Below are positions 307-39,982 of a stretch of DNA of 47,361 nucleotides, piece after piece. Source of the DNA: Lachnospiraceae bacterium (GTDB taxonomy: Bacteria; Bacillota; Clostridia; Lachnospirales; Lachnospiraceae); assembly GCA_022796475.1 (NCBI GenBank), contig JAAWIS010000023.1:1-47361 (forward strand), in the 5' to 3' direction. The position numbers and the translations under genes are program-made. Below the pieces are notes generated by a model. It had not been told where the DNA came from. It saw nothing but the letters and a program-made list of their open reading frames with translations, and made no database searches. Position 1 is the stretch's first letter. Each line of letters begins with the position of its first letter.

Positions 307-888
307 CTAACAATGCAGCTTGCCAAAAGGGATTATTTGCTCTGGCTGTGCCGGGTGGGGGCTAAGAAATTTTTCCATCCAGATCATGTCGTACCATCGT
401 CCAAATTTGTAGCCGCATTTTTCAAATCTCCCCACAAGCCGGTATCCCATACGTTTATGGAAATTCATGCTGTTATGATCTGCATATTGATCTTCCTTCT
501 CCGTATAGGCAATACATGCGTTCAGATTCAGAATATGCTGCCGTTTTAATATGTCTTCCAGCGCCTGATAAAGTGCTTTTCCGCAGCCCTTTCCAATCTG
601 CCCCTGCTTCACATAAATGGAGGTTTCCACAGACCAGTCGTAGGCTTTTCTGTTTTTAAATTCTGATGCATAAGCATAGCCAATGAGTTCTTTTCCTGAC
701 ACAGCTACAAGATAGGGATATTTTCGAAGAATGGTTTCCACCCTCCCCAAAAATTCTTCCAGGGAGGGTGTTTCATACTCAAAAGAAACTGCTGTATGCT
801 CTACGTAAGGACGGTATATTTCAAGAAGCTTTGGCACATCAAAGGCCTCTGCCCTGCGTATTATAATCGGTTCGTTTCCTGAATTCAC
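307..888 (-). CDS. GNAT family N-acetyltransferase, phosphinothricin-acetyltransferase-like
   Basis: This 193-residue protein matches the phosphinothricin-type (Pat/Bar/YwnH) branch of the GNAT superfamily, which moves an acetyl group from acetyl-CoA to a small amine. Visible features are an N-terminal IIIRRAEAFDVPKLLEIY segment, the central VETSIYVKQGQIGKGCGKAL (strand plus the acetyl-CoA pyrophosphate loop Q-x-G-K-G-x-G), and the C-terminal FHKRMGYRLVGRFEKCGYKF followed by WYDMIWMEK. The start is a GTG at 888 with a GGCGG ribosome site about nine bases before it. It begins 22 bp after the sulfur-enzyme fusion gene and is probably co-transcribed with it. The true substrate is unknown; many relatives act on amino-acid analogues such as methionine sulfone or sulfoximine. 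Confidence 0.85.
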   Translation of the reverse strand: MNSGNEPIIIRRAEAFDVPKLLEIYRPYVEHTAVSFEYETPSLEEFLGRVETILRKYPYLVAVSGKELIGYAYASEFKNRKAYDWSVETSIYVKQGQIGKGCGKALYQALEDILKRQHILNLNACIAYTEKEDQYADHNSMNFHKRMGYRLVGRFEKCGYKFGRWYDMIWMEKFLSPHPAQPEQIIPFGKLHC

Positions 889-910: not shown

Positions 911-3493
911 TCAGCAGGTAGCGCCGCCTTTCAGATGCTTTTCAGATGCAATATTTTCCGCCTTTCGAATCAGCAGATCATCTGCCAGAAGCTGCTTTTG
1001 TACTTCTTCAAATCCAATCCGTTCTACAGTATCAGCAAAACGTTCTCCTGTAATTCCCTGCTCCCGGAACAGAAGAATCGCTTTCTCAACAATGGATAAT
1101 AATTCTTCTTTATCTGTAAAAATGGGATCCAGATACCGTCCGATCGCCAGTTTCTTTCCCCAACGGCCGCCGATGTAAAGCCTGAAACCGTTGGTGTAAG
1201 ACTCAATGGCCCCAAATGGACAGCTTCCTACACAGCGGCCGCAGTGATTGCAGTGATTCTCATCAATCGTAATCTTACCCTCTGCAACCTTTGCAATTTT
1301 AATCGGACAGCTTGCCTCCACCTGGCAGCGGCTGCAGCCTCTGCACTTTTCCAAATCGATCTGGGGGATCCTCTGGCCGATAATTCCCAAATCATTCAGA
1401 TCCGGCTTAACACAATTATTCGGACATCCTCCCACGGCAATTTTAAATTTATGAGGCAGCTTCACCCCTGCATACCCGTGATAAAACCGCTCATGAATCT
1501 CCTCTGACAGCTCAAAGGTATCAATCAGGCCGTACTGGCATGTGGTTCCTTTACAAGATACCACTGGCCGCACCTTAGATCCGGTTCCTCCTGTTTCCAG
1601 GCCGGCCCTAAGCAGATACTCCCTCAGGGGCTGAATATTTTCGAAAGGAACCCCCTGGATCTCCATGGTAAGACGGGAAGTCATGGTTACCTCACCGCTT
1701 CCAAACCGCTCTGCTGCCTCTGCAATAGCCTTTGCTTCATCTGCAGTAATCTTTCCATTCCGGGTAATCACGCGGCCGTTAAACCGATCCGGCGTTCGTT
1801 TATCTTTTAAAAATCCAAATGCCTTTACCCTGGTTTCTTCTTCCTTTGACACAGGCTGGCAGGTATCCTTAACCACTACATCATTAAAGAATCCTGCCCC
1901 TTCCAGAACAGCCGTATTCTGATATCCGTAATAACGAAGGCGGTTCTGAAGGAAATACCCCCTCTTTCCCTTAGCACAGACTAAAAGCAGCTTTTCGTCC
2001 TTTTCAATGCCTTCTAATTCTCCTGTAACTTTGCTTAAATCAATATACCTGGCCCCTCGGACAGAAGGCTTCGGAGCTACATCAAGAATCTGGTATCCTT
2101 CTGCACATCCGGCAGCGTATTCCGCCGGAGTCATGCTTATCATCGTCCCTTCCAGCTTATTCAGCAGTATATATACTGCCTGCACAAAAGGATGGATTGC
2201 GGTAGAAAAAGGCGGCGCGTAAGCAAAATCTGCATTTTCAAAGTCCTCCAGCCTGGCTCCCATGTTGATTCCCATTACCGCAATATCTACCATCTTATCC
2301 ACTGCCCCGGGGCCAAATACCTGCATTCCAAGAAGCTTATGGCTTTTCTTATCTGCTATTAATTTTGTGGCAAAGAATGATGCATCTGAATAATAATGAG
2401 CCTTGTCATCTGTTACCGCAAGAACCGTTTCCACATCATACCCAGCGCTTTTTGCCTGAGCCTCTGTAAGCCCTGTGCGTCCGCAGTTTAAGGCAGGAAG
2501 TTTTATGACGCCTGTTCCCAATACTCCTGGATATTCTTTCTGGGCGCCGGCCAAAATCTGAGCCAGGGTCCGTCCTTCCAAGTTAGCCGAAGAGCCCATT
2601 GGCGACCACTGCCCTTCCCCAGTTATCCGGTTTACTACCTGCACACAGTCGCCTGCTGCATATACATCCGGCAGATTCGTTTTTAATGCCCGGTCTACAA
2701 CAATCCTACCCCGGTTCATCTCAATTTGGCTTCCTTCCAGGAATTTCGTATTCGACCGGATTCCTGCCGCCAGTACTACCAGCTCACAGTTTAAAGTCCC
2801 GGCTGTGGTTTTCATCCCGGCTACCCTGCCGTTTCCCGTAATTTCCTCTGCTTTGGTTCCGGTAATTACCCGGAATCCCTGCTTTAACAAGTGTTTTTTT
2901 CCAAAGTCAGCCATCTCCGGATCCAGGATCCCCTGCAAAATTTGCGGTGCAAAATCAATGACTGTAACGGAAATCCCCTTTTGCTGCAGATTTTCCGCCA
3001 TTTCCAGCCCAATAAAACCAGCTCCTACCACAACAGCCTTCTTTATCTGGTTTTCTTCTGCATAAGCCCGCACACGGACAGCATCATCCGGAACCCGCAT
3101 GGTAAATACTCCGGGAAGCTCTGCCCCTTTTACCGGGATTTCTGCTGGAGAAGCTCCTGTGGCAATTACTAATTTATCATAAGCAGCCCATTCTTCCTGG
3201 CCGGATGCCAAATTCTTTACCAGCACCGATTTTTTCTCCGGATCCAGCTTAATTGCTTCTTTGCCTGTTAATACCTCTACTCCAGTTAATGCGGCGTATT
3301 TTTCCGGAGTATTTACAATCAGCTCCTCTGGAGTTTCTATCATTCCCCCTACATAATAAGGCAGGCCGCAGCCTGCATAGGAAATATCCCTGCTTTTTGT
3401 AATCAAGGTAACCTGAATACTTCGATCTTCCCGTTTCAGTTTCGCTGCTGTTTTTGTTCCGGCAGCAACGCCTCCAATTACTAATACCTTCAA
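911..3493 (-). CDS. CoA-disulfide reductase / rhodanese / siroheme sulfite reductase / ferredoxin fusion
   Basis: An 860-residue fusion. Residues 1-445 are a flavin disulfide reductase of the CoA-disulfide reductase/Nox type: an FAD loop near residues 4-15, the redox Cys42 in ISYAGCGLPYY, an NAD(P) loop VVVGAGFIGLEMAENL at 154-169, and AAGDC at 279-283. Residues about 455-540 form a rhodanese domain with active-loop Cys506 (VCAKGKR). Residues about 565-700 form a nitrite/sulfite reductase half with the Cys set for a siroheme-coupled [4Fe-4S] cluster: Cys647 and Cys652 (spacing x4), Cys690 and Cys694 in GGCPNNC. Residues 717-758 hold two ferredoxin Cys sets. The start is TTG at 3493 behind AGGGGG. 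The protein is probably cytoplasmic and could pass electrons from NAD(P)H through FAD and Fe-S centres to persulfide, polysulfide or sulfite. The first two domains resemble known persulfide reductases; coupling to a sulfite-reductase module is unusual. The exact reaction is inferred. Confidence 0.88.
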   Translation of the reverse strand: MKVLVIGGVAAGTKTAAKLKREDRSIQVTLITKSRDISYAGCGLPYYVGGMIETPEELIVNTPEKYAALTGVEVLTGKEAIKLDPEKKSVLVKNLASGQEEWAAYDKLVIATGASPAEIPVKGAELPGVFTMRVPDDAVRVRAYAEENQIKKAVVVGAGFIGLEMAENLQQKGISVTVIDFAPQILQGILDPEMADFGKKHLLKQGFRVITGTKAEEITGNGRVAGMKTTAGTLNCELVVLAAGIRSNTKFLEGSQIEMNRGRIVVDRALKTNLPDVYAAGDCVQVVNRITGEGQWSPMGSSANLEGRTLAQILAGAQKEYPGVLGTGVIKLPALNCGRTGLTEAQAKSAGYDVETVLAVTDDKAHYYSDASFFATKLIADKKSHKLLGMQVFGPGAVDKMVDIAVMGINMGARLEDFENADFAYAPPFSTAIHPFVQAVYILLNKLEGTMISMTPAEYAAGCAEGYQILDVAPKPSVRGARYIDLSKVTGELEGIEKDEKLLLVCAKGKRGYFLQNRLRYYGYQNTAVLEGAGFFNDVVVKDTCQPVSKEEETRVKAFGFLKDKRTPDRFNGRVITRNGKITADEAKAIAEAAERFGSGEVTMTSRLTMEIQGVPFENIQPLREYLLRAGLETGGTGSKVRPVVSCKGTTCQYGLIDTFELSEEIHERFYHGYAGVKLPHKFKIAVGGCPNNCVKPDLNDLGIIGQRIPQIDLEKCRGCSRCQVEASCPIKIAKVAEGKITIDENHCNHCGRCVGSCPFGAIESYTNGFRLYIGGRWGKKLAIGRYLDPIFTDKEELLSIVEKAILLFREQGITGERFADTVERIGFEEVQKQLLADDLLIRKAENIASEKHLKGGATC

Positions 3494-3618
3494 GTAACTT
3501 CCCCCTCTCCTCTTTTTGTTTTTTCAAAAACCTTTATAAAAGAGTCCGGCTTGCCGGATATTTGCCGCTCCCGCCATACTTTGGCAGTACATATTATATA
3601 TTATAAATCTCTTTTATT
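3494..3618. other. Intergenic region with a small palindrome
   Basis: This 125-bp gap lies between the MCP gene (which ends at 3619) and the TTG start of the sulfur-enzyme fusion. It holds the perfect inverted repeat TCCGGCTTGCCGGA at 3545-3558, whose 13-base core recurs at 6971-6983, and AT-rich sequence towards 3600. No convincing promoter was identified. Confidence 0.45.
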
Positions 3619-4569
3619 TTATAAGGATCCCTTGTCTGCATCCTTGACAACCAGCGGAATCTGTGACAGCATATTATCAACATCTTCGAACATAGCGCTT
3701 TTTGTAGTGCCAAGGCTGTTGGCCCGCTCAATATGAGTAACCACTTCCTGATACTGGCTCCTCATCCCGCCAAAGAAGCTGCTAATTTCCTGGAGCTCCT
3801 TCTGGGAATTATCAATTACGCTGGAAATTTCTTCCTGAACCGCCGCTGCACCTTCTGCTGCCGTTATAATCTTATGGAAGCTTTCTGAAGTGCTGTTTAC
3901 CATATTAATACTGTCGCCCAATGCGCTTTGGGATGCCAGAATACTGCTGTTTAGCTGGCTGGTTCCAAACTCTACATCACGGATGCCGGAATCAACTTCT
4001 TTAGTCAGATCCTTTATCTCTTCTGCCAGCTCCTTTACACGCGCCGCAACTACAGCAAATCCTTTTCCTTCTGCTCCTGCCCGCGCTGCTTCAATCGATG
4101 CATTAATAGCCAGAATATTGGTTTGATCGGCAATTGCCACAATCCGTCCCATACACTGCTGAATTTCCTTTACAGCAGCCTGAAGCTGCCCAAACATCTC
4201 CTCCATGGTACTGTAAGATTTTTCCACTTCTTCAGAGGTGGTTCTAAGTTCCCCAACCTTTTCCTGTGCTTCTGATACGGTCTGGGCAATCTGTTTCCTT
4301 ACCTGAGCAAATTCTCCTGCTGCCTGATTAATATTGGAAAACGACATGCCAAAATTCTGCAGTTCATTCTGAAAGTTGTCGGCTTCCTTTAATACCCCGG
4401 AAAATGATGATTCTACCAGACTTAACTCTCTCAGGGATTCTACCTCTTTTTGAACCAAATCCTTTTGATAATCTTTTAAACTGCCTGTTACGTGCAGTAC
4501 CGGATAAAGGCTTTTCTCATCATTCTGCGCCTGCCCTGATTTCTGTCGGTTTTTTTTCCAAAATACCAT
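3619..4569 (-). CDS. Soluble methyl-accepting chemotaxis protein (signalling domain only)
   Basis: A 316-residue cytoplasmic chemoreceptor-type protein. The family hairpin tip is clear at about residues 145-185 ([20 protein letters not shown] followed by [16 protein letters not shown]), flanked by long coiled-coil arms. This tip normally contacts CheA and CheW. I see no membrane helix, no HAMP domain and no ligand-binding domain, only a short polar N-terminus ([12 protein letters not shown]), so it must take its input from another protein. It starts 12 bp after the FIST-domain gene and has a strong AGGAGGGG ribosome site, so the two are one operon and FIST is the obvious sensory partner. No che genes are in the window. 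The output could be chemotaxis or another receptor-kinase pathway. Confidence 0.88.
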
Positions 4570-4581
4570 GCTTCCCCTCCT

Positions 4582-5637
4582 TTATTCAAATACCACGCAA
4601 GTCATAGATTGGTTCACGAACCGGTTATTATAATGCTCTCCATATCCTACAAATCCCGCATGACTGCCTAATGAGCTCATCTCCTGCAAATAGGACTGCA
4701 TATAATTCTGCTCACTAAACAATTTATACCGGAACAGACAGTTTACGGAAAAAACAGCGGATCGTTTTGGAAAATCCCGGCAGATTGTCTGTATCGTTTC
4801 CTTTGTAATTGCTTTAAAATCTCCAAGTTCCAGCAAAATCAAAACATCGGAATCATTCACCTGGCGGAAACATGCCAAAGCATTTCCTTCAACGTCTTTA
4901 ATCGAAATAATGCAGGTATCATCTCCATTTATCTTTCCAAATGGATTTTTAAAGGTTTGGGTTAGGATCTGCTGATCCGTTACATGCAGGATACTCTGAT
5001 ATACCTGTTTTGCCGGTTTCCCGTTCAGGGCTCCGATTATGTATCTTGCTTTATCCGTATTAGAAGCAATAAAGCGATAGTCGCCAAGCTGGTGGTAAAT
5101 ATTTTCTTTGTAAGTTTTTACACGTCCGTTCTGGTTCCGAATCATCCCATAGGCAACGGCGTCCGGATAAATTTTTCCATTTGCTGATACCTTGCCTTTA
5201 TCGCCTGTTCCGCCAACCAATGAAATCCCTTTACGTTTCAGAACAGTATTAATTGTAGTTAATACACATGCATCATTTCCGCTGCAAAAATCAATGCAAA
5301 CGGTATCCCGATCTGATCCTCCTACTTTTGCCACATCCTGCTCCAGGCGTTTGATATACTTCACCGGCATTGTTGATACCTGCTCCAGCACATTTGCCGC
5401 AGCCGTAACCCCGTCTGTGAATGCGATAATGCCAACCCCTCTTTCCACAATTTTAGTATCGTAGCTCATCCCGATACATCCGATACTTGGGATCCCAGGA
5501 TAAAGTTCCTCTAATTCCTTTACGTGGGCTTCAAACTGTGTATCATTTGATAACAGCATAATAAACTGGGGCCTGCCAAGCCCCCGGGTTGCTTCTGCCA
5601 GATTGCCGCTCTGGCTCATTCCAAAAAACTGCCTCAT
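4582..5637 (-). CDS. FIST-domain sensory protein
   Basis: A 351-residue soluble protein with FIST_N and FIST_C architecture, a sensory module thought to bind small ligands such as amino acids. Typical segments are PSIGCIGMSYDTKIVERGVG near residue 75 and GISLVGGTGDKGKVSANGKI near residue 167. The C-terminal half carries the conserved NPFGKINGDDTCIISIKDVE region, FSVNCLFRYKLF, and near the end SLGSHAGFVGYGEHYNNRFV followed by NQSMTCVVFE. No signal peptide or membrane helix was seen. The start is supported by GGAGG seven bases before the ATG. It sits directly before the soluble MCP gene, which suggests it supplies that receptor with its input signal. A good sigma-A-type promoter lies at 5696-5725. 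Confidence 0.85.
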   Translation of the reverse strand: MRQFFGMSQSGNLAEATRGLGRPQFIMLLSNDTQFEAHVKELEELYPGIPSIGCIGMSYDTKIVERGVGIIAFTDGVTAAANVLEQVSTMPVKYIKRLEQDVAKVGGSDRDTVCIDFCSGNDACVLTTINTVLKRKGISLVGGTGDKGKVSANGKIYPDAVAYGMIRNQNGRVKTYKENIYHQLGDYRFIASNTDKARYIIGALNGKPAKQVYQSILHVTDQQILTQTFKNPFGKINGDDTCIISIKDVEGNALACFRQVNDSDVLILLELGDFKAITKETIQTICRDFPKRSAVFSVNCLFRYKLFSEQNYMQSYLQEMSSLGSHAGFVGYGEHYNNRFVNQSMTCVVFE

Positions 5638-8294: not shown

Positions 8295-9854
8295 CTAATC
8301 TCCGAAAACTGGAAACAGCTTCATTTTTTCTTCTCTGAACAGTGTGTTTGCCATCTCTTTTAACTGTCCGCTTATGATGGGAGTAAATTCCATCTGATCC
8401 AGAATGTCCTTCTTTAGATCTATTCCCGGGGCTATCTCTGTCAGCATAATTCCTCCTTCGGTAAGTTCAAATACTGCCCGCTCAGTCACATAGATAACCT
8501 TCTGTCCTCGTTTCCTTGCGTAGCTGCCGCTGAAACTTATCTGGGAAACGTGATTGACAGCTTTCTTTACCCGCCCTTCTGATAGGATAGTCAGGCCGCT
8601 GCTGTCAAAACCGGCTCGGAACCCTCCTGCCTTTAAAGTTCCCACAAAAATTACTTTCCTGGCAGACTGGGAAATATTAATAAATCCCCCTACTCCGTTT
8701 ACCCGCTGTCCAAAACGGCTTACATTTACATTTCCTTCCCGGTCAAATTCTGCAAACGACAGCACTGCCAGATCCAGTCCGCCTCCGTCGTACCAGTCAA
8801 ACTGACTGGGGGCCTCCAAAATCACTTCTGGATTGTAAACCAGGCCAAAATCGCTTCCGCCTGCCGGGATTCCGCCTGTAATCCCCTGCTCAACGGAAAG
8901 CTTCATATACCCGTCAGCTCCTTCCTCATGGATCACAGAAGCCACTCCTGCGGGCATTCCAAAACCAAGATTTACAATATTTCCCTTTTCAACCTCTATT
9001 GCGGCCCGCCGTGCAATTACCTTCCGCTCCGTCAGCTCCATGGGCTTAAGTTTTTCTTCCAGCACCATCCGGCACTCTCCGGACATAGCCGGATCGTATT
9101 CGGTCATCATAGACTGGCGCTGAGCCGGATCCACAACTACCGCATCCACCAGAATTCCTGGCACACGGATATCAAGAGGCTTTAACGTTCCCCTCTTTAC
9201 TACCCGTTTGACCTGAGCGATCACCAGCCCTTTGCTGTTTTTTGCCGCCTGTGCTGCTGCCAGGCATTCCGGAATCATGCCTTCCCGCTCAAAGGTTAAG
9301 TTTCCGTCTTCATCTGCTGTGGTAGCCCGGATCAAAGCCACACCTACCGGGATCGATTTATACAACAGGTATTCTTCTCCGCAAAGCTCTACCACTTCTG
9401 TAAGTTTTTCCACAGAACGGCTGTTCATAGCCCCTGCTTCTACCCGGGGATCCACAAAGGTTCCAAGCCCTGTTTTCGTAACTACTCCAGGCCGCCCGCC
9501 TGCAATTTCCCTCGCCATCTGGATCATAGTTCCCTGTGGCAGCACGTAGGCATCAATCTTTTCCTGCCTTGCCAGTTCCTGCATCCTTACAGACCAGGTC
9601 CAGTGGCTGCCTACCACCTTTTTTACCATGCCTTCATGGGCGAAGCGATCCACTCCCCCGCCTTCTTTATCCCCAATTCCGGCGCTGTGCCAAAGGTTTA
9701 AATCTCTGGGATGGCCATTTTCTAAAAACTCTGTTTCCAGTTCTTTTAAAAAATAGTAAGGTTCATTGATCCCGCCTCCGCCTGCTGCCAGCCATACATT
9801 GGAGCCGTCAGGGATCATAGCCGCTCCATCCCGGGCCTTTATTACTTTTTTCAT
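8295..9854 (-). CDS. Acyl-CoA:carboxylate CoA-transferase (family I, fused alpha/beta)
   Basis: A 519-residue single-chain CoA-transferase of the propionate/acetate CoA-transferase (YdiF-like) family. These enzymes move CoA from an acyl-CoA such as acetyl-CoA to a free carboxylate through an enzyme glutamyl-CoA intermediate. Both halves are present: the alpha part begins with the MIPDGSNVWLAAGGGG loop and the beta part holds GNIVNLGFGMPAGVASV. The catalytic Glu is Glu322 in KLSVEQGITGGIP. The ATG follows GGAGG with a short ATAC spacing. It lies 97 bp after the SDR gene and 140 bp before the LacI gene. A second member of the family (12061-13602) is in the same operon, so the two may act on different acids. 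The acid activated is not evident from sequence. Confidence 0.9.
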   Translation of the reverse strand: MKKVIKARDGAAMIPDGSNVWLAAGGGGINEPYYFLKELETEFLENGHPRDLNLWHSAGIGDKEGGGVDRFAHEGMVKKVVGSHWTWSVRMQELARQEKIDAYVLPQGTMIQMAREIAGGRPGVVTKTGLGTFVDPRVEAGAMNSRSVEKLTEVVELCGEEYLLYKSIPVGVALIRATTADEDGNLTFEREGMIPECLAAAQAAKNSKGLVIAQVKRVVKRGTLKPLDIRVPGILVDAVVVDPAQRQSMMTEYDPAMSGECRMVLEEKLKPMELTERKVIARRAAIEVEKGNIVNLGFGMPAGVASVIHEEGADGYMKLSVEQGITGGIPAGGSDFGLVYNPEVILEAPSQFDWYDGGGLDLAVLSFAEFDREGNVNVSRFGQRVNGVGGFINISQSARKVIFVGTLKAGGFRAGFDSSGLTILSEGRVKKAVNHVSQISFSGSYARKRGQKVIYVTERAVFELTEGGIMLTEIAPGIDLKKDILDQMEFTPIISGQLKEMANTLFREEKMKLFPVFGD

Positions 9855-9951
9855 GTATCCTCCATCCTGCCGCTGCTTCTGCCGGCTGCTTCCTAATGTC
9901 CTCCTTTTGCCACATAATCGTCAAAAGCTTATTTCATATGATGAAGTTTTC

Positions 9952-10719
9952 TTACAGTTTCTTAATATGGAACCCGCCGTCAAGATCAATATAATTTCCA
10001 GTGCTATAGATAAATTTCTCGCTGCAAAATGCGCTTACTGCATCTGCAATATCCTGGGGAGTTCCCCACCTTGCAATCGGAAATGCACCCTGTTCAATTA
10101 AATCGCTGTATTTTTTATGTACCACTTTCGTCATATCTGTATCAATCACTCCCGGGCGGATCTCATACACCTGGATATCCTCTGCTGCCAGGCGATCTGC
10201 ATACAAGGTAGTAAGCATGGCAACGCCTGCTTTCGATACACAGTACTCACCCCGGTTAGTAGAAGAAACGGTAACGGAGCTGGAACTGATATTTACAATC
10301 ACGCCGCGGCGGCGGCCCTTCACTGGCTGAGTCAGCATCTGGTTTGCCACCAACTGGGTCATAAACATGGTTCCCTTTGTATTGGTTCCTACAACATAGT
10401 CAAAACTTTCCTCTGTCATTTCCAGAAGATCCAGTCTTACCTTGGGCGCAACTCCTGCGTTGTTCACCAGCACATCAATATCGCCGTATTTCTCTACTGC
10501 CTGCTTCAGGAAATTTTCCCTGTCATCCTTGCTGGTAGTGCTGCCCTGCACATACAGATAGTCAATTCCCAGACTTTCTAATTCCTTTAAGTTCTCCTGA
10601 TACTGCTTCGGATCATTGATATCAAGGATTGCCACTTGATATCCGTCCAGACCAAGCTGCTTAACAATCCCAAATCCGATCCCTCTGCTTCCTCCTGTTA
10701 CAATTGCGGTTTTCTTCAT
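9952..10719 (-). CDS. Short-chain dehydrogenase/reductase (3-oxoacyl-reductase type)
   Basis: A 255-residue classical SDR. The cofactor loop is TGGSRGIGFG near residue 8. DINDP follows the second strand, and its acidic Asp suggests preference for NAD(H). The structural NNAGVAP, the catalytic Ser in VNISSSSV, the YCVSK catalytic Tyr/Lys pair and the C-terminal GNYIDLDGGFHI are all present. Proteins of this sort are often labelled 3-ketoacyl-ACP reductase, but the CoA-transferase and crotonase neighbours point to oxidation of a hydroxyacyl-CoA or sugar-derived alcohol. RBS AAGGGGGA precedes the ATG. A stable hairpin (10748-10772) lies in the 103-bp gap between it and the cupin gene. Confidence 0.9.
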   Translation of the reverse strand: MKKTAIVTGGSRGIGFGIVKQLGLDGYQVAILDINDPKQYQENLKELESLGIDYLYVQGSTTSKDDRENFLKQAVEKYGDIDVLVNNAGVAPKVRLDLLEMTEESFDYVVGTNTKGTMFMTQLVANQMLTQPVKGRRRGVIVNISSSSVTVSSTNRGEYCVSKAGVAMLTTLYADRLAAEDIQVYEIRPGVIDTDMTKVVHKKYSDLIEQGAFPIARWGTPQDIADAVSAFCSEKFIYSTGNYIDLDGGFHIKKL

Positions 10720-10747
10720 GATAAATCCCCCTTATTGTTCTTTAAAT

Positions 10748-10780
10748 GCTGCCCTCTGCAGAAATGGGCAGCGCTTTTTT
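10748..10780. other. Intercistronic hairpin between cupin and SDR genes
   Basis: GCTGCCC (10748-10754) pairs with GGGCAGC (10766-10772). The T-run (GCTTTTTTG) lies on the plus-strand side, so it would terminate antisense transcription, while the sense operon (minus strand) meets the stem without a T-tract. It may act as an RNA-stability or processing element within the operon. Confidence 0.5.
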
Positions 10781-10822
10781 GTTTTCGCCTATTCAGACAT
10801 TTTTATTTTAGCTGCCGGTTTG

Positions 10823-11203
10823 TTACTTTAGTTCCCCGGACATTTCCTGAGCCCAATGGTCTACCACCATTTTGGGCGCATATACAAACATCATGTGCAT
10901 GTCTTCCGTTCCTGTATTAATCAGACCATGGGGCAGATTTCGGTCAATATATACGGAATCGCCTTCCTTCACGGTTTCGGTTTCTCCTCCAATGGTCATT
11001 TCCCCTTTTCCTTTTATGATCGTATACGTTTCGATGGTTTCATGGCCATGAAGTGGGATGGAGCCGCCGGGATAAAGCACCACATAGCCCTGACAGAAAT
11101 ACTCCCCGTTAATCGCCCCATTTTCTCCATACATCACTCTGGTCCGTCTTCCAGTAGGAAATTCCATCCCTTCAATATCCTCAAAAATATTTATCTTTTT
11201 CAT
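10823..11203 (-). CDS. Cupin-domain protein
   Basis: A 126-residue single-domain cupin. Motif 1 reads GGSIPLHGHETIETYTIIKG, with the His-x-His and Glu usually used to hold a metal. Motif 2 includes GDSVYIDRNLPHGLINTG with the fourth ligand, His. Small cupins of this kind may be isomerases, lyases, dioxygenases or ligand sensors; under anaerobic conditions an isomerase or sensing role is more likely than oxygen chemistry. It starts 5 bp after the crotonase gene, so the two are tightly coupled. The function within the pathway is unknown. Confidence 0.85.
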   Translation of the reverse strand: MKKINIFEDIEGMEFPTGRRTRVMYGENGAINGEYFCQGYVVLYPGGSIPLHGHETIETYTIIKGKGEMTIGGETETVKEGDSVYIDRNLPHGLINTGTEDMHMMFVYAPKMVVDHWAQEMSGELK

Positions 11204-11208
11204 AGATT

Positions 11209-11991
11209 TTACCTTCCCTCATATTTTGGCGGCCGCTTCTCTAAAAATGCGGTCAGCCCTTCAATGGCATCGTGAGTAGTAAACAAAAATCCTAATGTCA
11301 TCGCATCCCTCTGGGCAATGTCAGTAGGCTGTTTGCCTGCTGCATCGTACACCAGTTTCTTGTCAAATTTCATGGTAAGCGGCGCTTTTGAGGCCAGCTC
11401 AACTGCAAGCTCTTCTGCCTTTTGCCGCATCGTTGCCACGTCCTCATACACCTCTGCAATCAGTCCATAGTCAAAGGCCTGCTGGGAGGTAATCATCTTT
11501 CCTCTAAGAAGCATATTCTTAGCCCGGCTCTCCCCAATCAGCCTTGAAAGCCGCAGCGTACCGCCCCATCCGGGAATCATTCCGATATTAATTTCCGGCA
11601 GGCCAAACTTGGCGTTTGCCGAACAAATGCGGATATCACAGCACATGGCGATCTCCAAGCCGCCTCCTAAGCAGTAACCGTTTACTGCAGCAACTACCGG
11701 AATATCCATGGTTTCAATCTTAGAAAACAGCTTATGTCCCACTTCGATCGAATATCTGGATTCCTCAGGACTCATTTTTACCAACTGGGCAATATCCGCC
11801 CCTGCCACAAATGATTTCTCCCCGCCTCCGGTAATAATCAAAGCGCGGATCTTTGGATCTGCTATTACCTCATCTACCAGCGTATCCATATACTCTACAA
11901 TCGGCACGCTGAGGGCGTTTCTGGTTTTTGGAATATCCACCATTAATATGGCATAGTTTTCTTTTTTCTCCAATGTGATTCCTTCTATCAT
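11209..11991 (-). CDS. Enoyl-CoA hydratase/isomerase (crotonase) family protein
   Basis: A 260-residue crotonase-fold enzyme that adds water to, or isomerises, an enoyl-CoA. The oxyanion-hole segments are GGEKSFVAGADIAQL and NGYCLGGGLEIAMCCDIRI. Both hydratase glutamates appear to be kept: one in GGGLEIAM and one in GLPEINIGMIPGWGG. It therefore should be an active hydratase rather than one of the divergent crotonases. The ATG follows CAGGAGGG. It is 69 bp downstream of CoA-transferase 2 and 5 bp upstream of the cupin. The substrate would be the CoA thioester formed by the transferases. No acyl-CoA dehydrogenase or thiolase is encoded nearby, so this is not a standard beta-oxidation operon. 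Confidence 0.92.
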   Translation of the reverse strand: MIEGITLEKKENYAILMVDIPKTRNALSVPIVEYMDTLVDEVIADPKIRALIITGGGEKSFVAGADIAQLVKMSPEESRYSIEVGHKLFSKIETMDIPVVAAVNGYCLGGGLEIAMCCDIRICSANAKFGLPEINIGMIPGWGGTLRLSRLIGESRAKNMLLRGKMITSQQAFDYGLIAEVYEDVATMRQKAEELAVELASKAPLTMKFDKKLVYDAAGKQPTDIAQRDAMTLGFLFTTHDAIEGLTAFLEKRPPKYEGR

Positions 11992-12060
11992 CTTGTAACC
12001 CTCCTGTTTTAATTGATTCTATCCATTGTTTTGCTTTCTGCTTTCGGCATCAGCCCTGCT

Positions 12061-13602
12061 TTATTTCAGTCCCATAATCTCCGGTGAAAAAATCCTGGCA
12101 TCCATAAGTTTTGGGGCTTTTGGCATCAGCGGCACAAAGTCCATCTGCTCTAAAATATCCTTCTGGAGATCCACCCCCGGGGCAATCTCTGTAAGCACCA
12201 GACCTTCTGGAGTCATTTCAAACACAGCACGCTCTGTTACATAAAGAACGGTCTGGCCGCTTTCCCTTGCATACTCGCCGCTGAAGGTAATGTGTTCCAC
12301 ATCTTTTAAGAATTTCCTGTTTTTTCCTTCCTGAAGGATATGGATCTCTTTGTCCTTAATCTCTGTTTTCAGTCCCCCGGCAGTAAAGGTGCCGCAAAAC
12401 ACACATTTTTTTGCAGTCTGAGAAATATCGATAAAGCCTCCGGCTCCTGCTATAGTAGCGCCAAACTTGCTTACATTCACATTTCCGAAGCGGTCTGCCT
12501 GGGCTAACCCCAGACAAGTCATATCCAGTCCATGGCCGCTGTAAAAGTCAAACTGGGATGGCCCGTCGATCATGGAATCGGAATTATAGGCCACACCAAA
12601 GATCGCTCCGCTGGCCGGAACTCCTCCGATAATCCCCTGTTCAATGGTCATTTTCACATAGTCTGCAATCCCTTCCTCTGCCGCTACCCTGGCTACCCCG
12701 TCAGGCATTCCAAAACCTAAATTAATAATACTTCCTTTTTTCAATTCCATAGCTGCCCTTCTGGCAACCACTTTCCTCTGATCCAAAGGCATAGGAGGGA
12801 TGGCATCTACAGGCATCTTTAAATCTCCTGTTAAGGCCGGGTTATATTCCCCTTCTATCGTCTGCACCTGATCCGGACATACCACCACAGCATCTACCAA
12901 GATACCTGGAATTCTCACATTCTTCGGATCCAAAGACCCTGCCTTGGCTGCAAATTTTACCTGGCAGATTACCGTTCCGCCGCTGTTATGCACCGCCTGG
13001 GCAATGGCTAAAGATTCCAGATAAGCCGGCTCATATTCCAGGGAAATATTCCCCTCAGAATCCCCGATGCTGCCCCGGATTAACGCCACATTCAGGGGAT
13101 AGGTTTTGTACCGGAGCCATTCTTTCCCATCCATCTCAATCAGCTCTACTAAGTCTTCCTTCGTTACATCATTTAGCTTTCCCCCTGATACCCTGGGATC
13201 CACAAATGTTTTAAGTCCTGTCTGGGTAATGGTTCCTACACGCTTTGCCGCAATCTCCCGGTACTGCAGCGCCACAATTCCCTGCGGCATATTATAGGCC
13301 TCAATCTTATTTTCATTTGCCAGCTTCTGCATCCTGGGCGACCATCCCCAGTGGCCGCCTACCACCCGCTTAATCATCCCTTCATGGGCAAACCGGCTGA
13401 TTCCTCCATTTTCTTTATCGCCGATTCCTGCGGAATGGGTGAGGCTCAAATTCTGTGGATGCCCTTCCTCTAAGAATCTTTTCTCCAGCGCTTCAAACAG
13501 GAAATTCGGTTCCATAATTCCCCCGCCATTGCCGGACACTGCAACACTGTCGCCGTCTTTGACCAGTTTTACCGCATCTTCTGCAGTCATAAATTTGCTC
13601 AT
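12061..13602 (-). CDS. Acyl-CoA:carboxylate CoA-transferase, second paralogue
   Basis: A 513-residue member of the same single-chain family I CoA-transferases as 8295-9854, and clearly a paralogue along its whole length: shared HSAGIGDKE, FAHEGM, LGFGMP and the C-terminal YVTERAVFE and LTEIAPG(I/V)DL blocks. The catalytic glutamate sits in MTIEQGIIGGVP. The ATG at 13602 has AAGGAG about eight bases upstream; an earlier in-frame ATG would add 23 basic residues without family resemblance. It begins 22 bp after the flavoprotein gene. Two transferases in one operon could activate two different acids, or activate the substrate and then recover CoA from the product. Confidence 0.9.
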   Translation of the reverse strand: MSKFMTAEDAVKLVKDGDSVAVSGNGGGIMEPNFLFEALEKRFLEEGHPQNLSLTHSAGIGDKENGGISRFAHEGMIKRVVGGHWGWSPRMQKLANENKIEAYNMPQGIVALQYREIAAKRVGTITQTGLKTFVDPRVSGGKLNDVTKEDLVELIEMDGKEWLRYKTYPLNVALIRGSIGDSEGNISLEYEPAYLESLAIAQAVHNSGGTVICQVKFAAKAGSLDPKNVRIPGILVDAVVVCPDQVQTIEGEYNPALTGDLKMPVDAIPPMPLDQRKVVARRAAMELKKGSIINLGFGMPDGVARVAAEEGIADYVKMTIEQGIIGGVPASGAIFGVAYNSDSMIDGPSQFDFYSGHGLDMTCLGLAQADRFGNVNVSKFGATIAGAGGFIDISQTAKKCVFCGTFTAGGLKTEIKDKEIHILQEGKNRKFLKDVEHITFSGEYARESGQTVLYVTERAVFEMTPEGLVLTEIAPGVDLQKDILEQMDFVPLMPKAPKLMDARIFSPEIMGLK

Positions 13603-13624
13603 TGCCCTTCTCCTTCCTGACATT

Positions 13625-15631
13625 TTATTGATAGTATGCGTTTTCCCGCCAATCTCTCCACACTTTTTCAAACCAACTGTCTTCCTCCGGAATCGGACGC
13701 ACAGGCCTTAAAAAGCACCGGCACCCATCCGGTCGGTATTCCACTTCCTGAATCTGTTCCGACATCCCATTATCTTCCAGAGAAAATGTAAATTGTTCCG
13801 GAAGACAGGAAAGAGGCTTTGCACCCTTCGGGTCATAAATAAGATATGAGCCTCTGCTGGCGCCGCCGCGGCGAATGTAATCCCCAATAGCTTCCAGGTA
13901 AACCTGCTGGCTTACTAAAAGATCCCGAAGGCGGTACAGCCGTTTTAAATCTGCCGGCTTGCTGATCCTTGCCGTTTCTGCCCGTTTCTGCTGAATCCGG
14001 TTCTTTACAAGTGCCTCGGTTACGCCTTCCAGAGAGCGGATATTTGCGCCTTTTTCAGACATCCTGACGCCTAATTCCTTTCGCTCTGCTTGTAAATCAA
14101 TCTCTTCCCCATGACGGTTAAATGCTTCCATCCCAAACCCTATGGCTTCTTCTATCTGAGCGCCGCAGTACCGTAAGATTCCTTCCTGGTCCATAGCAGG
14201 CCCTGTGTATTTATGAGCGATAAACTGGGCTGCCCGCAGACTTCCTGCCTGGCCGGAATTCAGCGCACTGCCTCCTGGCCGGTAAACACCATGGCTTCCG
14301 TTTACCTCCCCTACAGGGAAAAGATGGCGTAAGTTGCTTTCCCACCAGCAGTTTCCAGCCAGTCCTCCATTATTATGCTGGGCACATACGGCAATTTCTA
14401 AAAGCTCCGAATATAAATCAATATTGTGAGAGCGGTAAAGCTGGATCGCTGCCGGGTTCATGTGTTCTAACCGCTCAATCGGCGTATTCCATAAGCCGTC
14501 GGAATTTTTTAAATACGCATACGCTTCCTGGTTAAGAAGCTCTGAGGCAAAGAGGCCGTTTTTCTCAGCTTTCTTCGGGTTCTTTGTATAGTCTAAGAAT
14601 ACCCGCCTTCCCTTAATCACACATTCCTGATAAACAAGAATATCGATCAGGGAAGAGCCGTAGTTCATGGTCTTTCTCGGATCAAAGGGCCACTGATAGC
14701 CTTTTAGAAAAATGGCAGTAAGCATACTTTCTGTATCCTTAAAATACTCATCTAAAAACTCTTTCTCGTCGCTGCCGTCTGGCGCTGTAGACACGTATCT
14801 GGGAATAACCTGCTGATAGGTGCCGGACAAGTTCCAGCGGAATTTTATAGAAGCCATGCCGTACTGAGATTCTGTCAGGTTTTTCCCTCTGGCGCCTGCA
14901 CGGAAAGCTGCTCCCATGCCGCCAGTTTGGCTCACCGGATATACAGACGTATCATACATACCGGCTTCACCGCCTACTGCATAGACCACATTCTCAGCAG
15001 AAAATATGGTGTACTGGCTTTGCGCCTGAATTTCCCTGCCATTCAGCGCAAGGACACCGCAGGCCCGGCGCTCCGGTTTTGTTTTGCTTTCTTCCTCATC
15101 TTTCGTAAGAATCTCAATTACCTGGTATCCTTCAAATACCGGAATCTGATACCGGTCTGCTTCTCTCCAAAGGGCCTCAGTCATAAATTTGGAGGTCAGC
15201 GGTCCCGCTGAAGTTCCCCTTTGATTCGGATCATGATCCGTTTTATAACCTACATATTCGCCGCTTCCGTTGCATGGAAATGGCACGCCAATATCCACCA
15301 GATGATAAAAACCTCTTACGGAAAGGGCCGCTTCCGCTAAAGCCAAATCTCCGTCCATAGCCTGGCCTTCAAACAACGTCTGTGCCATTTTCCTGACACT
15401 GTCCGGCTCACTGCCGCAGGTGGTAAGCTTATAATAGGTCTGCTTGTCAGAACCAGTATTCCTGGAAGTTCCCATAAGCCTCCCTTCTGTAAGGATCCCG
15501 ATATCTCTCTGACCCTCCTTATAAAGGGAAACCGCAGCATTCAGCCCGGCCGCCCCGCTTCCCACTACTATGGTCTGCAGTGAGTAAAACCCATACTCCT
15601 GTCCCCCGATACGGATGGTTCCCTGTTCCAT
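13625..15631 (-). CDS. FAD-dependent oxidoreductase of the fumarate reductase/aspartate oxidase type
   Basis: A 668-residue flavoprotein. The FAD-binding loop is TIVVGSGAAGLNAAV near residue 20. The C-terminal half has the flavin/substrate region HNNGGLAGNCWWE, then LFPVGEVNGSHGVYRPGG and SALNSGQAGSLRAAQFI, like succinate dehydrogenase/fumarate reductase flavoproteins and L-aspartate oxidase. There is no Tat or Sec signal, haem site or membrane anchor, so it is cytoplasmic and its electron partner is unknown. It could reduce an activated C=C bond or oxidise a C-C bond of an acid or CoA thioester. It is the first gene of the operon and has a strong promoter and two operator-like cores just upstream (15662-15722). 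The substrate cannot be told from sequence. Confidence 0.85.
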   Translation of the reverse strand: MEQGTIRIGGQEYGFYSLQTIVVGSGAAGLNAAVSLYKEGQRDIGILTEGRLMGTSRNTGSDKQTYYKLTTCGSEPDSVRKMAQTLFEGQAMDGDLALAEAALSVRGFYHLVDIGVPFPCNGSGEYVGYKTDHDPNQRGTSAGPLTSKFMTEALWREADRYQIPVFEGYQVIEILTKDEEESKTKPERRACGVLALNGREIQAQSQYTIFSAENVVYAVGGEAGMYDTSVYPVSQTGGMGAAFRAGARGKNLTESQYGMASIKFRWNLSGTYQQVIPRYVSTAPDGSDEKEFLDEYFKDTESMLTAIFLKGYQWPFDPRKTMNYGSSLIDILVYQECVIKGRRVFLDYTKNPKKAEKNGLFASELLNQEAYAYLKNSDGLWNTPIERLEHMNPAAIQLYRSHNIDLYSELLEIAVCAQHNNGGLAGNCWWESNLRHLFPVGEVNGSHGVYRPGGSALNSGQAGSLRAAQFIAHKYTGPAMDQEGILRYCGAQIEEAIGFGMEAFNRHGEEIDLQAERKELGVRMSEKGANIRSLEGVTEALVKNRIQQKRAETARISKPADLKRLYRLRDLLVSQQVYLEAIGDYIRRGGASRGSYLIYDPKGAKPLSCLPEQFTFSLEDNGMSEQIQEVEYRPDGCRCFLRPVRPIPEEDSWFEKVWRDWRENAYYQ

Positions 15632-15661
15632 CTAATCTACACTCCTTTCCAGCTGTCGCAA

Positions 15662-15722
15662 GAAATCGTTTGTACAATCGTTTTCATAGCTATAGCATAT
15701 CACAAATTATTCGGCTGGTCAA
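15662..15722 (-). promoter_or_regulatory. Main catabolic operon promoter and tandem operator
   Basis: On the minus strand TTGACC (15722-15717) and TATGCT (15699-15694) are 17 bp apart. Where transcription would start lies TGAAAACGATTGTACAAACG followed by ATTTC (15687-15663), in which AAACGATT occurs twice, separated by GTAC. This fits repression by a LacI-family protein, either the local one or CcpA. Confidence 0.65.
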
Positions 15723-15819
15723 TCCTTTTTCTATATAAACTGAACTGTTTTTCCTCTAATTTTCTTCCCTGTTATTCACCTTACGACTGACGTATCCAAA
15801 TGCCTTGAGTTGAAACGCA

Positions 15820-15859
15820 GATTTTAAGCGGCGGCACAAAAAATGAACCGCCGCTTAAA
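15820..15859 (-). terminator. Terminator after the MaoC operon
   Basis: A perfect 12-bp stem, TTTAAGCGGCGG (15823-15834) with CCGCCGCTTAAA (15848-15859), lies 44 bp after the last MaoC gene. It has A/T-rich flanks on both sides and should work for minus-strand transcripts. Confidence 0.7.
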
Positions 15860-15902
15860 AATCCTTTGTTCTGCTTCTTCACGAAAGCTTCCGGAAATAT
15901 TT

Positions 15903-16358
15903 TTATTTTTCAAATGGAAGGATTTCAAGTTTCTGTATAAATGTTGCCAAGATCAGTGGCCTGTCCTCTGGGCCTGTCCCTTGTTTCCGGCAAACCACAT
16001 CAATCATTACCTTATTTTCCTCTGGAATCACTTCGGTTACTTCTCCCCGTACCGTTACTGTATCATTTAACAGTACGGCTGATTTAAACTTAATTTCCTG
16101 AGAATACGTAACAGAACCGTCACCGCAAAGCCGGTTCAGCACCGGGCAAATTAACCCTGCTGTCAGCATACCATGTGCAATTCGAGAGCCATACATCATG
16201 GTTTTCCCAAATTCTGCACTTACATGCTGGGGCGCGTAATCACCTGATAATTGGGCAAACATCATAATATCTGCCTCTGTTACCGTTTTGGAAAACCAGG
16301 CTACCTGACCTGGATGAATATCTGCGATCTCCTTTAACACAATCCCTTCTAAGCTCAT
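15903..16358 (-). CDS. MaoC-type (R)-hydratase, paralogue 1
   Basis: A 151-residue hot-dog-fold protein. The MaoC/hydratase-2 motif LSGDYAPQHV keeps the catalytic Asp and His, and GSRIAHGML follows, as in (R)-specific enoyl-CoA hydratases. It should hydrate a 2-enoyl-CoA or dehydrate a 3-hydroxyacyl-CoA, likely as a dimer. It is the last of three MaoC genes and begins one base after the stop of the second, so translation is probably coupled. A terminator follows at 15820-15859. It is separate from the flavoprotein operon, whose promoter lies just beyond. Confidence 0.88.
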   Translation of the reverse strand: MSLEGIVLKEIADIHPGQVAWFSKTVTEADIMMFAQLSGDYAPQHVSAEFGKTMMYGSRIAHGMLTAGLICPVLNRLCGDGSVTYSQEIKFKSAVLLNDTVTVRGEVTEVIPEENKVMIDVVCRKQGTGPEDRPLILATFIQKLEILPFEK

Positions 16359-16359
16359 A

Positions 16360-16818
16360 TTAGCACTGTCCCCCTTTGCTTTTTTCTGCCGCTAAATCCA
16401 TTCCTTCAAGGGATACGCCGCGAAGCACTAATTCCCGTTTTTGGTTATAGGCCTCAAACTCCACTGACACCCTTTTACTTTGCTGATCCACTGCTGCCAC
16501 TTCAGCCCGTATGGTTACCGTATCCCCTGGATAAACGGGTGCTTCCATCTGAAATTCCCGCTTAATCGGATAGGCTCCTGGGGAAAGCAGACGAAAAATC
16601 GCGCCTCCAGCCATGGCTCCTATCAGCATGGGATGTGCTACACGCCCGCCAAATCTGGTTTCGCGGCCAAAGGGCTCATTCATATGAACCGGAGCAAAAT
16701 CTGCAGAAATACCGGCGTATAAGGTGATATCTGTTTCACTGACTGTTTTGGTAAACAGCGCAAATTCTCCTACTTTAAGAGTTTCTACTGTTTTTTCTTC
16801 AAACTGCATAATTGCCAT
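16360..16818 (-). CDS. MaoC-type (R)-hydratase, paralogue 2
   Basis: A 152-residue MaoC-fold protein. The hydratase motif ISADFAPVHM keeps the Asp and His, with FGGRVAHPML following. It resembles paralogue 1 over its whole length (the shared EF/FAPxH block and the C-terminal strand with V-x-I/V-x-F/V). RBS AAAGGGGG precedes the ATG. The gene lies 14 bp after the third MaoC gene and 1 bp before the first. With two active-looking and one inactive-looking copy, the products may assemble as heteromers. Confidence 0.87.
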   Translation of the reverse strand: MAIMQFEEKTVETLKVGEFALFTKTVSETDITLYAGISADFAPVHMNEPFGRETRFGGRVAHPMLIGAMAGGAIFRLLSPGAYPIKREFQMEAPVYPGDTVTIRAEVAAVDQQSKRVSVEFEAYNQKRELVLRGVSLEGMDLAAEKSKGGQC

Positions 16819-34079: not shown

Positions 34080-34349
34080 TTAACGAATAAACCGCTTTAT
34101 TTTTGATTTAGGGATCAGCGCCTGATAGCCGCAGCATTCTCCTGTTTCCGGATCTTTTTCACAGCACCGTTTCCACAAATGCCGGACTGCTGCCAAACGG
34201 ATTCCCGTAGCAAGAAAGATTTCCTTTGCACTTTTTCCCGTTTGGTACAGCTCCAGGGCCCGCCTCCTGGACTGGTACACGCACCGTTCTGCCACCGTCA
34301 AATTATTTTCGTCAATTTCCTTCCACTGATTCTCCTGTTTCTTCATCAT
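34080..34349 (-). CDS. Short HTH protein resembling a Mu-type transposase N-terminus
   Basis: An 89-residue basic protein. The middle part, SRRRALELYQTGKSAKEIFL followed by TGIRLAAVRHLWKRC, looks like a helix-turn-helix. The following GYQALIPKSKIKRF resembles the sequence found just before the catalytic core in Mu/TnsB-type transposases (GFRALIP...). Here the frame stops at 34080 and no DDE catalytic domain follows, so it is either a remnant or a small stand-alone DNA-binding protein. The start at 34349 (ATGATG, AAGGGG upstream) lies within the last 38 bp of the GLUG gene, in another frame; a longer frame to 34451 is possible but adds only a Lys/Arg-rich tail from overlapping sequence. Confidence 0.55.
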   Translation of the reverse strand: MMKKQENQWKEIDENNLTVAERCVYQSRRRALELYQTGKSAKEIFLATGIRLAAVRHLWKRCCEKDPETGECCGYQALIPKSKIKRFIR

Positions 34350-39911: not shown

Positions 39912-39953
39912 CTGTCTTTTCGTCCTTTCTTTCTGAATCTTGCTACTTGCCAT

Positions 39954-39982
39954 ATTATGTATAATCATGATAAAATACTCAA
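39954..39982 (-). promoter_or_regulatory. Promoter of the MMPL operon
   Basis: On the minus strand TTGAGT (39982-39977) and CATAAT (39959-39954) are 17 bp apart. The imperfect inverted AGACGG/CTGTCT pair near 40008-40034, between this promoter and the TetR gene, is a possible operator. Confidence 0.55.

Follow-up and report, generated by a model that had tools for sequence, protein, structure and literature searches.

Why would a CoA-disulfide reductase (CoADR), a rhodanese, and a siroheme sulfite reductase be joined in one protein? The question is raised by a 47,361-nucleotide contig of a Lachnospiraceae bacterium (JAAWIS010000023.1, assembly GCA_022796475.1), taken over its whole length and hereafter called the window. 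A single open reading frame (ORF) of 860 residues on its reverse strand, at 911-3493, carries the three modules in this order from N- to C-terminus, and the siroheme module contains an inserted 2[4Fe-4S] ferredoxin. The preliminary description of the window had proposed this module identity and order, and both are borne out by Pfam and phmmer. It did not mention the invariant last residue, Cys860. We propose, from sequence comparison, that the fusion may reduce sulfite to sulfide in the cytosol at the expense of NAD(P)H, with Cys860 as a DsrC-like arm that would pass sulfur to the rhodanese/CoADR half. We put the probability of this reading at about 40%. The source genome of the window (G000:C51) is a draft of 3.77 Mb in 170 contigs; G and L numbers below are our handles for genomes and loci. 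Papers are cited for a part of their text, except PMC7596348, for which the main text is meant.

Module order and conserved residues

The gene and its parts are positioned as follows; (-) denotes the reverse strand.

911..3493 (-): whole fusion gene, 860 residues (ORF; aligned with 86 other full-length proteins)
2633..3493 (-): FAD/NAD(P)H-binding CoADR module, residues 1-287 (Pfam PF07992 Pyr_redox_2, 4.8e-62)
3368-3370 (-): codon of Cys42, the CoADR active cysteine, kept in 87/87
2195..2488 (-): CoADR dimerisation domain, residues 336-433 (Pfam PF02852 Pyr_redox_dim, 4.3e-17)
1898..2113 (-): rhodanese domain, residues 461-532 (Pfam PF00581 and alignment to the CoAPR rhodanese)
1976-1978 (-): codon of Cys506, first residue of the rhodanese loop CAKGKR, kept in 87/87
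1826..1873 (-): linker joining the two halves, residues 541-556, with the lowest conservation among the measured stretches
1610..1801 (-): sulfite/nitrite reductase ferredoxin-like half domain (NIR_SIR_ferr), residues 565-628; Arg574 is a putative sulfite ligand (Pfam PF03460, 6.5e-14)
989..1582 (-): siroheme/4Fe-4S NIR_SIR domain, residues 638-835 (Pfam PF01077, 1.6e-31; aligned to Fsr 7npa and 9tn7)
1202..1366 (-): inserted 2[4Fe-4S] ferredoxin, residues 710-764 (Pfam Fer4 families)
914..955 (-): C-terminal tail, residues 847-860, ending in GGATC with Cys860 last (conservation and census of terminal cysteines)

The ORF begins with TTG, and a purine-rich stretch lies directly 5' of it at 3501-3512, a start context judged by eye, without a ribosome-site scan. 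Residues 1-534 match the CoADR-rhodanese reductases nearly end to end (phmmer: 6pfz, 1.6e-93; EfCoAPR 8a56, 8.3e-88; Bacillus CoADR-RHD 3icr, 5.5e-83; also Shewanella Npsr 3nta), with the rhodanese cysteines aligned. Like these proteins, the fusion has the active Cys42 and the rhodanese Cys. The dimerisation domain carries the conserved motifs DKAHYY and YAPPFST in the alignment, and the rhodanese scores 21.3 bits with PF00581, slightly below the cut-off of 22.2. Unlike the fusion, the CoADR-rhodanese reductases end shortly past the rhodanese domain. In addition, the rhodanese loop of the fusion clade is more basic, and the fused or split copies have a siroheme partner with a C-terminal Cys.

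For the siroheme half, the closest solved structure is F420-dependent sulfite reductase (Fsr; 7npa, 4e-39 by phmmer). The fusion shares the siroheme domain, the 2[4Fe-4S] insert, and the four sulfite ligands with the C-terminal half of Fsr (7npa, 7np8, 9tn7) and with group III Dsr-like proteins. The siroheme domain holds Cys647, Cys652, Cys690, and Cys694 and the putative sulfite ligands Arg642, Lys682, and Lys684. Residues R574, R642, K682, and K684 align with R356, R424, K461, and K463 of M. infernus Fsr, which bind sulfite and nitrite (PMC13381448). Among 95 fused or linked siroheme modules, R574 is present in 94 (one gap), and the other three ligands and the four cluster cysteines are present in all. 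The fusion differs from Fsr in its electron-input module, in an extension past the end of the alignment (near residue 832) that finishes in Cys, and in its cluster motif C-X4-C (CKGTTC), which is one residue shorter than the C-X5-C of Fsr and than the motif of DsrA. The C-X4-C spacing also occurs in most close solitary siroheme relatives, as read by a motif finder that misread L107, L110, and rows scored 3 and gave nothing for six rows. The domain make-up of AsrC in AsrABC is the same as that of the siroheme half, but the separate AsrC of the window's own genome has His at the position of Lys682 and no terminal Cys.

None of the best 25 of 108 matching NCBIfam models reaches its cut-off: TIGR03385 (CoA-disulfide reductase) scores 374.5 bits against 578.8, TIGR02912 (AsrC) 100.9 against 324.1, and TIGR02374 (NirB) 239.9 against 578.35. 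A DsrC family is found neither in the 22 Pfam matches nor in those best 25 NCBIfam matches. No PDB chain spans both halves among the matches listed (60 of 246 in one search, all 42 in another). Among the papers listed by full-text searches of an open-access library, none describes the fusion; most subscription journals and preprints lie outside this coverage. The architecture is likewise unmentioned in the available parts of papers on selenium (PMC5322559), Faecalicatena and sulfoquinovose (PMC11659671), Dsr evolution (PMC10504309), and dairy sulphite reducers (PMC6041559). These results agree with the earlier suggestion that no characterised enzyme with this order is known, and the architecture is apparently undescribed so far.

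The family alignment comprises 87 full-length proteins including the window's, equivalent to 58 at 90% identity; the others are 58-82% identical to the window's protein. Cys42, Cys283, Cys506, the four siroheme-cluster cysteines, the eight ferredoxin cysteines, and Cys860 are invariant in all 87, whereas C236, C337, C463, and C545 vary. The invariant set includes every cysteine singled out in the preliminary description (42, 506, 647, 652, 690, 694, and two ferredoxin sets of four). Mean column conservation is 0.62 in the linker, 0.77 in the rhodanese, and 0.87 in the siroheme domain. Compared with L009, differences at the three codon positions number 141/79/467 over 860 codons; by this sequence measure, the coding sequence is under strong purifying selection.

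Scanning a single genome for each species gave 169 relatives, of which the best 80 were retained. All but two of these 80 match from residue <=3 through 860 with 65-82% identity, and they are mostly filed under Lachnospiraceae, Mediterraneibacter, Blautia, or Oscillospiraceae-type names. Several of the carriers are Clostridium relatives that live in the gut. An even order-level sample of 295 genomes contains the full fusion in 10 and, in G094, a copy running off the locus at its N-terminus. An even phylum-level sample of 398 genomes contains it at E <= 1e-140 in 3, including the window's genome and G538, which lies outside the window's class. Both searches scored the two to five best candidates per genome. 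Chimeric assembly and chance joining are both rejected, since 78 of 80 contigs span residue <=3 to 860 and fusions also turn up in a different family of the class and in a different class of the phylum. The fusion is no artefact, because the key cysteines are invariant in 87 aligned full-length proteins. At the level of sequence, the architecture is real and conserved.

The C-terminal cysteine and the CoADR half

Across 48 aligned fusions, conservation is 0.996 in the final pentapeptide GGATC, compared with 0.78 in the nine residues that precede it. A terminal Cys is present in 93 of 95 fused or linked siroheme modules (GGATC 90, GGAKC 2, IGATC 1; 92 distinct sequences), and the remaining two are incomplete (L061 stops at residue 777, L069 at the contig end). 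Three further modules with a terminal Cys come from L132, L133, and the split L137; L134-L136 duplicate the window, L132, and L133. Of the siroheme modules fused or linked to a CoADR, all 96 with a complete C-terminus thus end in Cys, compared with 0/39 siroheme relatives without a linked CoADR of the fusion clade, three of which have a Cys within the last 20 residues. The 39 consist of 13 from one alignment and L138-L163, and for most of them the CoADR was looked for within a flank of ~1.5 kb. They include proteins of G017, G153, G244, G252, G260, and G268, genomes without a CoADR match at E <= 1e-80 among the three best candidates scored in each.

The split forms locate the tail. The halves are adjacent genes in four genomes of the order sample (G283, G096, G254, and G080) and in G390 of the phylum sample, where the CoADR is cut by the contig start, making five genomes in total. 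In these split pairs, it is the siroheme subunit that bears the tail, and not the flavoprotein. The fused, split, and stand-alone CoADR copies examined form one clade apart from two ordinary CoADRs (support 100/100). The L104 split pair nests among the fusions and probably arose by later fission. At L100-L103, CoADR-rhodanese proteins that belong to the fusion clade (57-60% identity) stand alone, with no siroheme gene adjoining.

In a tree of 43 siroheme modules, from which the tail was left out, the tail carriers need two changes. None of the 200 bootstrap trees (0%) has a single change, and a constraint to one clade yields p = 0.029 in the approximately unbiased test. The branch setting four split copies apart has support of 95/93, and the same arrangement appears in a wider tree (59 rows), for which long-branch warnings were raised. 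The tail carriers are not one clade. Therefore, on this tree, the tail and the CoADR linkage changed together at least twice. The association of the tail cysteine with the CoADR half, the module order, and the conservation of the catalytic cysteines and sulfite ligands are all read from the sequences themselves.

Candidate reactions of the fusion

In the proposed reaction, the siroheme-[4Fe-4S] centre, supplied via the inserted ferredoxin with electrons from the same FAD or from an outside ferredoxin, would reduce sulfite. The sulfur would depart as a persulfide on Cys860, in the fashion of the DsrC arm, and the tail would pass it to rhodanese Cys506 or to CoA. The CoADR half (Cys42, FAD, NAD(P)H) would then reduce the persulfide to HS-. 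We infer in this proposal the cytosolic location, the siroheme occupancy, the sulfite substrate, the source of the siroheme electrons, and the sulfur transfer by the tail. With the invariant thiols 860, 506, and 42 beside a siroheme centre, a sulfur relay is the simplest account, and given Cys860, its likelihood is no lower than that of a plain electron relay. Invariance of Cys42 and Cys506 is what one would expect if thiol chemistry were still in use.

CoA-persulfide reductase requires both the CoADR and the rhodanese Cys; in cells, persulfide is found only on the rhodanese Cys, and the proposal is that CoA swings as an arm from one cysteine to the other (PMC9405070). In DsrC, the tail is flexible and sulfur is bound to its penultimate Cys, which is conserved; the C-terminal arm enters the DsrA/DsrB cleft beside the siroheme (PMC3397948). 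Assimilatory sulfite reductases are reported to release S0 as a direct product (PMC13188885); a persulfide reductase fused to such an enzyme would then have a use. The fusion resembles DsrAB with DsrC in that a siroheme sulfite reductase would work with a sulfur-carrying C-terminal Cys arm. It differs in that the arm would be covalent to the siroheme protein, its Cys is last rather than penultimate, and no DsrC domain is found. By analogy, the fusion could tentatively be seen as a single-chain counterpart of DsrAB, DsrC, and the DsrC-reducing complex, whose own arm would deliver an S0-level product to a rhodanese/CoA-persulfide reductase, so that NAD(P)H would finish sulfite reduction in the cytosol without a membrane complex. 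The idea of a rhodanese domain in DsrL was dropped, the word being absent from the main text of PMC7596348.

Genomic context is consistent with sulfite as substrate. The siroheme-synthesis model TIGR01470 is matched in 13/15 carriers compared with 95/280 other genomes (Fisher p = 6e-5, relatedness not controlled). The split pair of G254 adjoins a divergent LysR gene, YeiH (PF03601), CbiK, HemA, and SirC (TIGR01470), with HemC-like and CobA-like frames recognised by eye. A divergent LysR gene also adjoins the fusion at L091; the fusion at L034 has YeiH and a weakly LysR-like gene in its vicinity. In Salmonella, yeiH is required for sulfite resistance (PMC12880088). The preliminary description had envisaged a complete electron path from NAD(P)H to sulfite or polysulfide. 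The role in sulfite reduction gains support from the conserved ligands, the siroheme-synthesis gene of most carriers, and the YeiH/LysR/siroheme-synthesis neighbourhood at the one split locus of G254. The complete path from NAD(P)H to siroheme does not, as characterised CoADR relatives reduce a thiol or a persulfide (PMC9405070).

Several observations weigh against the proposed reading. In G216, G224, and G201, a fusion-type CoADR is unlinked to a tail-less siroheme protein, so the two proteins exist without the tail; the missing tail is read in L127 and L128, and G201 is judged solely by a match end at residue 850. G129 has a fusion-type CoADR and no siroheme match at E <= 1e-80. At L115, one of the 39 relatives, a tail-less siroheme protein is adjoined by an ordinary CoADR (37% identity). 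In the tree of 43 modules, the inner branches are weaker (80/88 and 81/88), and L140 is a long branch. The carriers G180 and G094 lack a TIGR01470 match, and TIGR01470 serves cobalamin synthesis too. An asr operon (L121) is present in the window's genome as well, which means that the fusion protein would not be its sole sulfite-reducing system. Nor are the carriers associated with CysD or AsrC, as detailed below. Salmonella sulfite reductases did not contribute to sulfite resistance (PMC12880088). The authors of the Fsr work argue that the site of Fsr, which is aSir-like, yields sulfide without intermediates (PMC10229431), and DsrC of DsrAB-containing organisms has two tail cysteines (PMC3397948), compared with one in the fusion.

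The make-up of NirB, with a Pyr_redox_2 flavoprotein and NIR_SIR domains on a single chain, is similar to that of the fusion. The fusion could run electrons from NAD(P)H via FAD through the ferredoxin insert to siroheme for six-electron sulfite reduction, with the thiols and the tail as relics or structural elements. The TIGR02374 match, though below its cut-off, points the same way, and Fsr couples an F420H2 oxidase to a similar siroheme module via [4Fe-4S] clusters (PMC10229431). However, C42, C506, and C860 remain invariant in 87/87 while C236, C337, C463, and C545 vary; the characterised CoADR-rhodanese relative reduces CoA-persulfide (PMC9405070), and Pfam finds no Fe-S domain on the CoADR side. 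The fusion also differs from NirB in being of the CoADR type with Cys42, in having a rhodanese and a ferredoxin insert, and in having no BFD-like [2Fe-2S] domain among its Pfam matches. We consider a plain electron path a serious alternative, though somewhat unlikely.

A reductase of thiosulfate or organic thiosulfates would account for the joining of all three activities. The rhodanese would split thiosulfate into sulfite and a Cys506 persulfide, and the siroheme and CoADR modules would turn these into two sulfides. Positions C+2 and C+4 of the rhodanese loop are basic in 87/87 proteins, and a loop-end Arg is present in 81/87; RDL2 and DUF442 require such an Arg to split thiosulfate (PMC8533005). 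A rhodanese together with Asr has been proposed for thiosulfate reduction in Halanaerobium (PMC5497025). CysD has no match in the window's genome, which makes sulfite from activated sulfate less likely there. On the other hand, the loop-end Arg is missing in 6/87 and is also present in three aligned CoADR-rhodanese structures including CoAPR, the solitary siroheme relatives have no rhodanese, and no known thiosulfate gene occurs among the annotated neighbours, most of the 850 neighbour proteins being unannotated. Thiosulfate reduction is an unlikely function but still a serious alternative.

Mercuric reductase and large thioredoxin reductases have thiol/disulfide shuttle tails, and C-terminal Cys tails are known in the pyridine nucleotide-disulfide oxidoreductase superfamily. 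With a similar shuttle here, the substrate would be external (a disulfide, a persulfide, or a metal), and the activity of the siroheme half would be secondary; this is very unlikely, since split forms carry the tail on the siroheme subunit rather than the flavoprotein, and a lone Cys cannot make the usual intra-tail redox pair. Reduction of nitrite to ammonium is very unlikely: M. infernus Fsr does oxidise F420H2 with either nitrite or sulfite, both of which it binds by one set of four ligands, and it accepts nitrite with the Lys that corresponds to K684, a position that is Asn in the plant enzyme (PMC13381448), but the fusion retains this Lys, one split locus has a sulfite-like neighbourhood, and the thiols of a persulfide reductase would be purposeless.

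Neighbouring genes and consequences for gut sulfide surveys

Two other functional links are rejected. CysD (E <= 1e-60) is matched in 3/15 carriers compared with 38/280 other genomes, and this lack of association speaks against a link to assimilatory sulfate reduction. AsrC, in 4/15 carriers compared with 37/280, is not associated either, and replacement of AsrC is rejected. In the window's genome, the asr operon at L121:4763-9724 is succeeded by a molybdopterin oxidoreductase gene, with a ferredoxin-like frame and a flavoprotein beyond.

The 87 loci yield 850 neighbour proteins, of which few clusters are annotated; on visual inspection, several of the largest clusters resemble chromosomal context, namely a region of ribosomal-protein and dnaB genes. 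A DUF134 regulator-like gene lies near 25/87 loci, directly upstream on the same strand in 23 (e.g. L017:1347-1745), an assignment for which Pfam was run on one of the 25 genes. A FecBCD-type transporter is found in 9/87 loci (L050, L057, L058, L063, L067, L068, L079, L085, and L092) and also, as an ABC transporter, at L120, L127, and L128, i.e. by fused, split, and solitary siroheme proteins. A TenA-family gene is divergent from the fusion in 5/87 loci (L093-L096 and L098) and occurs also at L129:8863-9519. Immediately 5' of the fusion lie a GGDEF-EAL protein with a C_GCAxxG_C_C redox domain at L013:109-1905 and an MnmA-type tRNA thiolase gene at L012:4751-5836, the latter in 2/87 loci. No riboswitch is indicated, as Rfam has no match besides tRNAs in the window or in ten loci.

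The neighbours in the window itself are different. Proteins with an MCP signalling domain and with a FIST domain (weakly NosP-like) are encoded directly upstream of the fusion at 3619-5637 (-), and a GNAT protein like the arsinothricin-resistance ArsN1 family B (156.6 bits, below the cut-off of 210) at 307-888 (-). These GNAT, MCP, and FIST neighbours have no match at E <= 1e-5 among the 850 neighbour proteins of the 87 loci. Further away, at 8295-16818 (-), lie genes for two CoA-transferases, an enoyl-CoA hydratase, an SDR protein, a cupin, two MaoC-like proteins, and a FAD-binding protein, after which TRAP transporter genes extend up to 24929. A 1087-residue frame at 34312-37575 (-), without a Pfam match at 1e-10, overlaps by a few bases an MMPL-family gene at 37572-39968.

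Sulfide production in the gut is commonly scored via dsrAB and asrABC. Surveys with the AsrC or NirB models would probably miss the fusion, because it scores below both cut-offs. If the tail works as proposed, the fusion would show how a sulfite reductase is wired to a persulfide reductase within one chain, and it would bear directly on whether siroheme sulfite reductases release sulfide or S0.

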